Assembly (NCBI GenBank): GCA_945873065.1
Contig: CAMCBN010000002.1
Span: 62,001 to 126,000, forward strand
Reading direction: 5' to 3'
Origin: an uncultured Candidatus Saccharibacteria bacterium
GTDB lineage: Bacteria > Patescibacteriota > Saccharimonadia > Saccharimonadales > Saccharimonadaceae
DNA: 64,000 nucleotides
Below are positions 16,496-34,322 of this stretch, in pieces. Each line of letters starts with the position of its first letter. The first letter of the stretch is position 1. The notes below the pieces were generated by a model that worked only from the letters and a program-made list of their open reading frames with translations, had not been told where the DNA came from and did no database searches. A program made the position numbers and the translations under genes.

Positions 16496-16571
16496 GCGGG
16501 TTTAGCTCAGTTGTTAGAGCGCTTCCTTGCCATGGAAGAGGCCAGGAGTTAGAGTCTCCTAACCCGCACCA
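16496..16571 (+). tRNA. tRNA-Gly (anticodon GCC) with U19:A56 in place of G19:C56
   Basis: Acceptor GCGGGTT/AACCCGC, anticodon loop TTGCCAT giving GCC, encoded CCA. The D-loop is CAGTTGTTA (position 19 is T) and the T-loop is TTAGAGT (position 56 is A). The normally invariant G19:C56 pair is thus replaced by a matched T19:A56, so the elbow contact could still form. A TATACT promoter box lies at 16473-16478. Confidence 0.92.
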
Positions 16572-16890: not shown

Positions 16891-16967
16891 GGGGCATTAG
16901 CTCATTTGGCTAGAGCGCTTCGCTGGCAGCGAAGAGGTGACCAGTTCGAATCTGGTATGCTCCACCA
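16891..16967 (+). tRNA. tRNA-Ala (anticodon GGC)
   Basis: Acceptor GGGGCAT/ATGCTCC with the alanine identity pair G3-U70, anticodon loop CTGGCAG giving GGC, T-loop TTCGAAT, encoded CCA. D-loop G18-G19 is normal. The next tRNA follows after 5 nt, so the two are cotranscribed. Confidence 0.95.
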
Positions 16968-16972
16968 TTGAT

Positions 16973-17049
16973 GGGTCTTTAGCTCAGTCGGCTAGAGCGC
17001 ACGATTCACATTCGTGAGGTCACAGGTTCGAATCCTGTAAGACCCACCA
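16973..17049 (+). tRNA. tRNA-Val (anticodon CAC)
   Basis: Acceptor GGGTCTT/AAGACCC, anticodon loop TTCACAT giving CAC, standard D- and T-loops, encoded CCA. It follows tRNA-Ala(GGC) by 5 nt. Confidence 0.95.
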
Positions 17050-17109: not shown

Positions 17110-17185
17110 GGGGATATAGCTCAGTTGATAGAGCGCAGCATTCGCATTGCTGAGGTCGAGGGTTTGAATCCCTCTATCTCCACCA
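17110..17185 (+). tRNA. tRNA-Ala (anticodon CGC) with A19:U56 in place of G19:C56
   Basis: Acceptor GGGGATA/TATCTCC with G3-U70, anticodon loop TTCGCAT giving CGC, encoded CCA. The D-loop CAGTTGATA carries A19 and the T-loop TTTGAAT carries T56, a second matched replacement of the usual G19:C56 pair. No hairpin terminator follows, only T-rich DNA leading into the next promoter. Confidence 0.93.
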
Positions 17186-17258: not shown

Positions 17259-18572
17259 ATGTTCAAACGGTTTATTCAACGGCATCTTGAGTCGTATGTC
17301 GTGAAGTACTTTCAGGCTCACCCCGAAGTAAAATTAGTAGTAGTCACTGGTAGTGTTGGCAAGACGAGCACCAAGCGAGCGGTAGCGACGCTTTTGTCGC
17401 AGCGGTATCGTGTGAGGATGCTTGATAATAATCACAACACAGATTTATCTGCACCATGCGGGATTCTCGGTGTGGCATATCCGGTAGGTAAGGTACATAG
17501 TGTAGGTGCCTGGCTTCGCGTATTTCGAGCGGCTCATCGCAGAGTTGTTGAGCCAACCGACGTGGACATTATTGTGCAAGAATTGGGTACGGATCACCCA
17601 GGGGAGATCGCAGATTTTGGGCGGTACTTAAGACCAGACCTCGCTATCGTGACAGCGGTGACGCCAGAGCATATGGAATTTTTTGGTTCGATCGATGAAG
17701 TGGCCCGAGAAGAGCTGGAAGTAGCCAGTTATTCTAGACAAGTACTACTAAATCGTGATGATATTGAGGGACGGTTCGCAAAATTTATTACAAATCCAAA
17801 CTTTAGCACTTATGGCACCACTGGTCTAGGTGAGTATCGATTTGAGCAACATGATTTCACAGCTGAGTCTGGTTATCGTGGTATGGTAATAACACCATCA
17901 GAGGTGTCACCATCATTTATGGTATCGATCAACGTTGTCGGCGAGCATAGTCTCCGGCCAGTCATGGGGGCTGTAGCAGCAGCGCTTCATTACGGTGTTA
18001 CGCCCGAAGAAATCGTAAGGGGTCTGCAACTGATACGGCCTGTACCAGGGCGGATGAATCCACTGATTGGTATCGGTGGCACGACGATTATTGATGATAC
18101 ATATAACTCTAGCCCAGCAGCAGCTTTAGCGGCTTTGCAAACATTGTATAGTTTTAGCCAGGCATCGCAGCGTATTGCTATTTTGGGTGATATGAATGAA
18201 TTAGGGGCCTCAAGCCAGTCTGAGCACGAAAAACTCGGTGCTGCCTGCAGCTCGAGCTTGCTTGATTGGGTAGTGACAGTTGGCCCTGAAGCTGGTAAAT
18301 ATATTGCCCCAGCAGCACAGTATCGAGGATGTCAGGTGAAAGTGTGTCGTGATGCGATAGAAGCTGGACGGTTTGTTCGTTCGGTTAGCCAAGCTGGATC
18401 GGTCATCTTAGTGAAGGGATCGCAGGGTGGTATTTTTCTTGAAGAAGCAGTTAAGATTTTATGCGTCACTAGTGAAGATGTCGAGTTGGTTCGACAGTCT
18501 CCCGAGTGGATGGCTATTAAGGCGCCATACTTCTCACAGTATGAAGATTTCGTTGGTGGCAGACGCCGTTAG
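17259..18572 (+). CDS. Mur ligase, MurF-like
   Basis: A 437-residue ATP-dependent Mur ligase. The P-loop VTGSVGKTSTKR lies near residue 31, the central-domain segment VVQELGTDHPGE near 110, TAVTPEHMEFFG near 137, and the C-terminal domain carries DDTYNSSPAA and AILGDMNELG, typical of MurF (addition of D-Ala-D-Ala to the UDP-MurNAc tripeptide). It is most like the MurF branch, but a CPR-specific paralogue cannot be excluded. The frame can open at 17229, but a TACAAT box (17246-17251) lies inside, 7 nt before the chosen ATG. Confidence 0.82.
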   Translation: MFKRFIQRHLESYVVKYFQAHPEVKLVVVTGSVGKTSTKRAVATLLSQRYRVRMLDNNHNTDLSAPCGILGVAYPVGKVHSVGAWLRVFRAAHRRVVEPTDVDIIVQELGTDHPGEIADFGRYLRPDLAIVTAVTPEHMEFFGSIDEVAREELEVASYSRQVLLNRDDIEGRFAKFITNPNFSTYGTTGLGEYRFEQHDFTAESGYRGMVITPSEVSPSFMVSINVVGEHSLRPVMGAVAAALHYGVTPEEIVRGLQLIRPVPGRMNPLIGIGGTTIIDDTYNSSPAAALAALQTLYSFSQASQRIAILGDMNELGASSQSEHEKLGAACSSSLLDWVVTVGPEAGKYIAPAAQYRGCQVKVCRDAIEAGRFVRSVSQAGSVILVKGSQGGIFLEEAVKILCVTSEDVELVRQSPEWMAIKAPYFSQYEDFVGGRRR

Positions 18573-32720: not shown

Positions 32721-34322
32721 ATGTCTATAGATATGAATCGTGAAGACTACACACTAGTGACTGAAATGTCGGCGAAAAAGGCAAGAGGATATTTTTATAA
32801 ACCAGAGTGCTATGTCAATTTCAAATTACCATACTATGTAAATTTTAAAGAGCTACTGAAAAATGCCCGTGATATTACAAAAGGTAAAAACCAAGTAAGT
32901 GATATGTGCGAAAAGGACGAGTATGGTAGGCCGATATATCCAAGTAGACTCCCGGATGTGAACCATACTATATTAAAGAATAAAAATAGCAGTTTTGCGT
33001 GGCGTCCGCTTCAAATAATTCATCCAGTTTTATACTCTGAATTGGTGAATCATATAACATCCGAGGATAATTGGAAAAAACTCCAGGAATTCTTTCAGAA
33101 AAGAGATAAGTCAAAAGTCAAGTGTGCGAGCATGTTATTTGAATCGAATACGTCCCAGTCAGATCAAGCTATGCAGATTGTTAATTGGTGGAATAACGTA
33201 GAACAAGAAACACTACGTCGGTCGCTTGATTACAGTTTTATGCATCAGACTGATATATCGGATTGCTATGGATCAATTTACACTCACTCATTTGAATGGG
33301 CGCTCGCTGAAGATGGTCGACTTGGCGTCAAAAAGGAAAGGGAAGGGACAGGAAAATCAAGTCATAACTTAGGCACGGAAATTGACAAAAGGCTAAGAAA
33401 TATGAACCAGAACCAAACAAACGGTATACCGCAGGGTTCTGCTTTGATGGATTTCTTGGCAGAGATAATACTTGGCGGTGTTGACATTGAGCTAACAGAG
33501 AGAATCAACGAGGATGCTAGCCTTAAAGATGCGAAAGGTGCGCAAGGTGAGAATTTTAAGATAATTCGTTATCGAGATGATTATAGAATTTTGTCTACCG
33601 AGAACTATACTGGGCATCAAGTAATGAAATTGCTTAGTGATGTGCTGATGAAATGGAACTTCAAAATGAATAATAGCAAAACGTTTCAAACAGATGATAT
33701 TATATCGTCAGCAATAAAACAGGAGAAGCGTGATGAGGTATATGAAGCTCCAGCGAGATTACCGTATCAGAAAGAGGCGATGAGGATATTCTTGCTGTCA
33801 AGAAAATATCCAGGTACCGGATTGATCTCAAAACAGTTGGCGTATTATTATAATAGGATCAATAGAAAGAAGCCTTTAAAGAATATTGACTATGAAGCGA
33901 CTATCTCTATTATAGCTATGATCGCATACTATAGCCCAAATTGCATTTCGTCCGCTGCAGGTATAATCTCAAAACTTATTGAAAAATCTGAAGGTGTGGT
34001 GGATCGCAAATCTACTGTAGAAAGAATAATTGAGAAGTTCGCTGATATTCCGAATACAGAATTTGTTAATATTTGGCTGCAAAGAATTATGGATGGGGAT
34101 ACGGCGATGAGTGATGTGTTTGATAGCGAAATAACTAAGGTGATAGCTGGAAAGAAGGATGCTGGTGTGTTATGGAATTCCAAGTGGCTTACGGACGAAT
34201 ACCAAGAGCGGCTAAATGTTAAAATATCTACCCTCAAGGAAGATGTTGAGTCGGGTGAATTTAGTCCAGTTATGGAGCAAGAAGAGTTTCAGATATTCGA
34301 CGACATACCGTCTGCAGGATAG
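32721..34322 (+). CDS. Reverse transcriptase, defence-type (DRT-like)
   Basis: A 533-residue protein with the RT palm motifs: motif A TDISDCYGSIYTHSFEWAL near residue 173, motif B NGIPQGSALMDFLAEIIL near 234 and the catalytic YRDD in IIRYRDDYRIL near 276. An N-terminal region with FAWRPLQIIHPVLYSELVN and a helical C-terminal part of about 190 residues complete it. Neither group II intron maturase nor retron parts are visible. This fits the unknown-group RTs that give phage resistance (DRT), though I cannot assign a subgroup. The DNA is more AT-rich than pheS and typA. It follows the methylase remnant by 7 nt. Confidence 0.85.
   Translation: MSIDMNREDYTLVTEMSAKKARGYFYKPECYVNFKLPYYVNFKELLKNARDITKGKNQVSDMCEKDEYGRPIYPSRLPDVNHTILKNKNSSFAWRPLQIIHPVLYSELVNHITSEDNWKKLQEFFQKRDKSKVKCASMLFESNTSQSDQAMQIVNWWNNVEQETLRRSLDYSFMHQTDISDCYGSIYTHSFEWALAEDGRLGVKKEREGTGKSSHNLGTEIDKRLRNMNQNQTNGIPQGSALMDFLAEIILGGVDIELTERINEDASLKDAKGAQGENFKIIRYRDDYRILSTENYTGHQVMKLLSDVLMKWNFKMNNSKTFQTDDIISSAIKQEKRDEVYEAPARLPYQKEAMRIFLLSRKYPGTGLISKQLAYYYNRINRKKPLKNIDYEATISIIAMIAYYSPNCISSAAGIISKLIEKSEGVVDRKSTVERIIEKFADIPNTEFVNIWLQRIMDGDTAMSDVFDSEITKVIAGKKDAGVLWNSKWLTDEYQERLNVKISTLKEDVESGEFSPVMEQEEFQIFDDIPSAG

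Follow-up and report, generated by a model that had tools for sequence, protein, structure and literature searches.

A tRNA-Ala(CGC) gene of a Candidatus Saccharibacteria genome carries A19:U56 in place of the elbow pair G19:C56, and the best explanation, which we hold at a probability of roughly 85%, is that this is a functional tRNA in which the pair was exchanged by compensated substitution, selection acting on the pairing and A:U or U:A being tolerated in some tRNAs. To our knowledge, G19:C56 is treated as almost fixed in every tRNA, with a face touched by the ribosome, RNase P and tRNase Z. The swapped pairs that we found are complementary almost without exception, covary at the two positions, are distributed across the whole class and recur in other phyla and in viruses.

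An intact tRNA-Ala(CGC) with A19:U56

The gene lies at 17110-17185 on the + strand of the window, by which we mean the whole stretch of 64,000 nucleotides that was analysed, in a genome of 853,655 bases that is 97% complete and has 42 Rfam tRNAs. It was called by ARAGORN and by Rfam, its RF00005 score of 69.0 bits exceeding the gathering score of 29, and its predicted fold is a cloverleaf of -27.6 kcal/mol. Standard tRNA numbering fits without insertions. The loop parse gave a D-loop of 8 nt, AGTTGATA, carrying G18 and A19 (17128, +), and a T-loop, TTTGAAT, carrying U55 and U56 (17165, +), which bears out the A19:U56 pair that a preliminary description of this DNA had read from the sequence. 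The canonical G19:C56 is therefore absent, Watson-Crick complementarity between the two residues is retained, and the D-loop with its G18 is not of the shortened, Pyl-like kind that lacks the G18 G19 motif. The acceptor stem is intact, with G at position 3 and U at position 70, a G3-U70 pair having an identity role in tRNA-Ala, and CCA is encoded.

A pseudogene or degenerating tRNA would be one way to account for a pair that is nearly universal elsewhere being abandoned here, but the 69.0-bit cloverleaf, the intact acceptor stem, G3-U70, the encoded CCA and the relatives that conserve the same state led us to reject this alternative, which the preliminary description had still allowed for and which we find scarcely credible. 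Judged by these features, the tRNA is probably functional in translation. Directly downstream of it, at 17259-18572 (+), lies a Mur ligase (MurF-like) gene with the Pfam domains Mur_ligase_M and Mur_ligase_C.

Seven of the nine tRNAs in the window keep G19/C56 in the loop parse, as had been stated before, among them tRNA-Ala(GGC) at 16891-16967 (+) and tRNA-Val(CAC) at 16973-17049 (+), both called by ARAGORN and used as internal comparisons. The second exception besides tRNA-Ala(CGC) is tRNA-Gly(GCC) at 16496-16571 (+; ARAGORN, Rfam and loop parse), with U19 at 16514 and A56 at 16551. Genome-wide, the pair is swapped in four of the 42 tRNAs, always with complementarity (A:U in Ala-CGC, Ala-UGC and Pro-UGG, U:A in Gly-GCC), and is G:C in the other 38. 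The two window swaps had been taken for independent compensated events; both are indeed compensated, but the genome holds four, and the one in Gly-GCC was inherited across the class. Since ARAGORN called 43 tRNAs against the 42 of Rfam, its Arg-TCG (L030) was set aside as an apparent antisense artefact.

Two further observations concern the genome and the window at large. The genome (L018) and several class relatives have a tRNA-Arg with anticodon GCG; in most bacteria this tRNA has ACG with inosine, so the class may lack deamination of adenosine 34. At 32721-34322 (+) the window encodes a 533-aa reverse transcriptase (Pfam RVT_1) with AbiP2 as its best PADLOC model (E 1.9e-153), a defence-type enzyme in a small Patescibacteria-type genome.

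Covariation of positions 19 and 56

Our search patterns fix the D-stem (GCTC/GAGC, or GCGC for Pro), U54 U55, R57 and A58, so that the counts apply to tRNAs with those stems, and the counted sequences include relatives and are not independent. With position 56 set to anything but C and position 19 left free, a match was obtained in 141 of 147 class genomes (136 of the 138 of high quality), and all 150 rows among the matches listed were complementary: 84 were scored by script, with 50 U:A, 34 A:U and no other state among the matches listed (60 of the 84 being Gly-GCC), and the other 66 were inspected by eye without a mismatch. The reverse pattern, C56 with a residue other than G19, matched in none of the 147 class genomes, and a different pattern run on 61 family genomes returned no mixed 19/56 state among the matches listed. 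Likewise, C19:G56 was absent from the class rows among the matches listed and from the rows of the phylum sample.

Within the class the swaps fall mainly in Gly-GCC, Ala and Pro-UGG. By eye, 62 rows of Ala tRNAs from 51 genomes divided into 11 A:U and 51 G:C (five of each for Ala-CGC), and 87 rows of Pro-UGG from 109 genomes into 22 A:U, confined to family f1 and one f5 genome, and 65 G:C; neither set held a mixed pair. In a phylum sample of 286 genomes the non-C56 pattern matched in all 25 class members and in 11 of the 261 others, and 44 of the 45 rows were complementary. The remaining row, a G19-U56 wobble in a tRNA with anticodon CGT (Thr; G327:C5:49990-50038), is a candidate swap intermediate.

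GTDB contigs, scanned with both positions restricted to A or U, yielded at least 120 loci and 122 matches. Among the matches listed, 120 of the 122 lay in ARAGORN tRNAs and all 120 were complementary (105 A:U and 15 U:A, or 70 and 12 among the 82 distinct sequences), the other two being one A:A where there is no tRNA and one A:U that ARAGORN did not call as a tRNA. Viral contigs gave complementary pairs in 121 of 122 matches listed and in 111 of 112 distinct sequences, the exception being one A:A, with 97 A:U and 14 U:A among the distinct swapped sequences listed. The viral tRNAs with A19:U56 (loci L199-L318) are mostly Arg-UCU and Thr-UGU, which are also the commonest canonical isotypes in the viral baseline.

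Among 80 named GTDB loci we found swaps in Gly-UCC of Bacteroidales, Ala-CGC of Opitutia and Alphaproteobacteria, Gly-GCC of Clostridia, Gly-CCC of Oligoflexia, Arg of Pyrinomonadaceae, and Met and Thr of Pacearchaeota; the named Saccharibacteria loci showed the swap types already described for Gly-GCC, Ala-CGC and Ala-UGC. The swaps in Bacteroidales, Opitutia, Alphaproteobacteria and the other groups are convergent. When the 1,659 distinct tRNAs of all loci were parsed more loosely, the count was 1,399 G:C, 186 A:U, 37 U:A, 1 C:G and 36 others, these last uncurated (11 A:C, 10 U:C, 6 C:C, 2 G:U, 2 A:A, single cases of G:A, U:U and C:A, and 2 in which residue 19 received no number); some of the uncompensated pairs may be D-loop numbering errors.

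The covariation by which the preliminary description had suggested checking its claim was thus strong in the class, phylum, GTDB and viral sets, and the matched swaps exceed what chance would give. Its view that pairing is kept is strongly supported, by the lack of C56 with non-G19 in the 147 class genomes and by the 120 complementary GTDB matches listed. The accompanying view that identity is relaxed holds in part but fails as a general statement, with 38 of 42 tRNAs of this genome at G:C and non-C56 matches in only 11 of 261 phylum genomes outside the class; nor does it seem to describe class Gly-GCC, which never showed G19 (0 of 147).

Possible drift, selection and tuning of the elbow pair

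In tRNA-Ala(CGC) a compensated double substitution would have replaced G19:C56 at the elbow by A19:U56, probably through G19-U56, a presumed intermediate that the single wobble among the phylum rows fits. For the A-site finger, uL5, the L1 stalk, RNase P and tRNase Z, what counts at the elbow may mainly be a Watson-Crick pair that is flat and stacked, which would place complementarity under strong selection. A:U and U:A would then be tolerated in some tRNAs: class Ala and Pro-UGG tRNAs vary between A:U and G:C, and Gly-GCC of the class, as far as sampled, has lost G:C altogether and alternates between A:U and U:A.

Much of this could come about by neutral compensatory drift from G:C through G-U to A:U, two transitions without benefit that are then inherited by clades, an account to which we give slightly less than even odds. 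Drift by two transitions predicts the large excess of A:U over U:A seen among the distinct sequences of the matches listed, in cells (70 against 12) and in viruses (97 against 14), and it is in keeping with the one G19-U56 intermediate observed and with the different states of Ala-CGC and Pro-UGG among relatives. What it explains poorly is Gly-GCC. A D-stem pattern for this tRNA that required G19 matched in none of the 147 class genomes. With any state allowed, in a phylum sample of 145 genomes, nine class genomes matched and all were swapped (5 U:A, 4 A:U), the tenth (G081) giving no match; outside the class 14 genomes matched, with 13 G:C and one A:U, and the remaining 121 did not match the pattern. 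The Gly-GCC swap is an inherited, class-wide state and no local event.

Families f1 and f9 each contain both orientations of the Gly-GCC pair, G174 and G047 differing from the rest of f1 and G116 from G135 in f9. A tree of TruB from 20 genomes requires at least two changes between A:U and U:A (bootstrap range 2-4); its backbone is weak, and its well-supported branches force only one. An exchange of A:U and U:A needs two transversions and a return to G:C two transitions; since the exchange was seen and the easier return was not, the pattern suggests selection against G:C in class Gly-GCC, with identity held at a weak pair, although the same signal could arise from intermediates missing from the sample or from replacement of the tRNA. 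The tRNA in question must work: of the 1072 Gly codons in the 42 window ORFs, 772 are GGT or GGC, and the genome showed no second G34 tRNA-Gly.

Selection of this kind would be expected if tRNAs for GC-rich codons (Gly, Ala, Pro, Arg-CGN) compensate for strong codon-anticodon pairing with a weaker elbow pair, making decoding and release uniform. Such tuning is possible, though we consider it rather doubtful. All four swapped tRNAs of this genome are Gly, Ala or Pro, class Gly-GCC shows A:U and U:A and never G19 in 147 genomes, and cellular swaps are concentrated in Gly, Ala and Arg, plus Pro in the class. When the 80 named GTDB loci were sorted manually into 23 lineage-by-anticodon events (the 40 loci L159-L198 being left out), GC-rich boxes made up 16 of the 23, compared with 20 of the 93 canonical tRNAs of a baseline drawn from 8 of 12 genomes (Fisher P 2e-5). 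The hand grouping and the partial baseline weaken this comparison, and fourfold boxes were enriched as well (19 of the 23 events and 35 of the 93 baseline tRNAs, P 1e-4), so that redundancy could explain the GC-rich bias. Cellular swaps also occur in Val, Thr, His, Met and Arg-CCU, and viruses, where Arg-UCU and Thr-UGU dominate, showed no enrichment (23 of 110 swapped tRNAs, compared with 27 of 153 canonical ones, P 0.53).

In the literature, the accessible part of PMC7566577 reports that Ala and Gly tRNAs need special features for uniform decoding, and that of PMC5758916 that replacing the natural U19:A56 of tRNA-Pyl by G19:C56 improved this tRNA in mammalian cells, raising suppression. A fuller proposal, that 19:56 is a tuning site at which selection holds class Gly-GCC weak and cells repeatedly weaken the pair in GC-rich boxes, evening out handling by the ribosome, strikes us as unlikely, if worth stating.

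The swaps could also reflect relaxation after loss of TruB, the T-loop modification enzyme, which needs Y56. A56 in Gly-GCC breaks its minimal substrate, 53-GUUYRANYC-61, which allows U56 and excludes A56 (PMC7912444, accessible part). However, TruB was found in 29 of 31 class genomes, this one included, and A19:U56 keeps Y56; the wide presence of the enzyme led us to reject its loss as the cause, an explanation we hold to be very improbable. TruB may have changed in specificity, and the exclusion of A56 from the substrate makes pseudouridine 55 in Gly-GCC a point to test.

Significance and comparison with known tRNAs

As far as the accessible parts of PMC4810234 and PMC7912444 go, G19-C56 is a conserved, exposed pair contacted by the ribosome and by many proteins and RNAs. 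That a whole class has replaced it in a tRNA it cannot do without, and that matched swaps recur elsewhere, points to complementarity and a flat pair as the real requirement. Natural 19:56 variants offer a way to ask whether tRNAs adjust the elbow to the strength of codon-anticodon pairing, and they warn that C56 should not be taken as invariant in tRNA models. Our literature search, with most subscription papers outside its scope, returned no report of a bacterial A19:U56 or of a class-wide Gly-GCC swap, and novelty is unproven.

The tRNA-Ala(CGC) shares with canonical bacterial tRNA-Ala the cloverleaf, the 8-nt D-loop, the 7-nt T-loop, G3-U70, CCA, and G18 with U55, and differs from it in having A19:U56 where the latter has G19:C56. 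A precedent for the pair in the tRNA-Gly(GCC) of the window is tRNA-Pyl, whose natural pair, according to the accessible part of PMC5758916, is a complementary U19:A56 in the same orientation; unlike the window tRNAs, which are otherwise canonical elongators, it has a D-loop that is shortened and in which the G18 G19 motif is missing (PMC7609411, accessible part). Eukaryotic tRNA-Ala offers a parallel in that a conserved tertiary pair has changed in an isotype-specific way in Ala tRNAs, but there the changes affect 15/48, 54/58 and 30/40, and 19:56 is described as conserved in the accessible part of PMC7566577.
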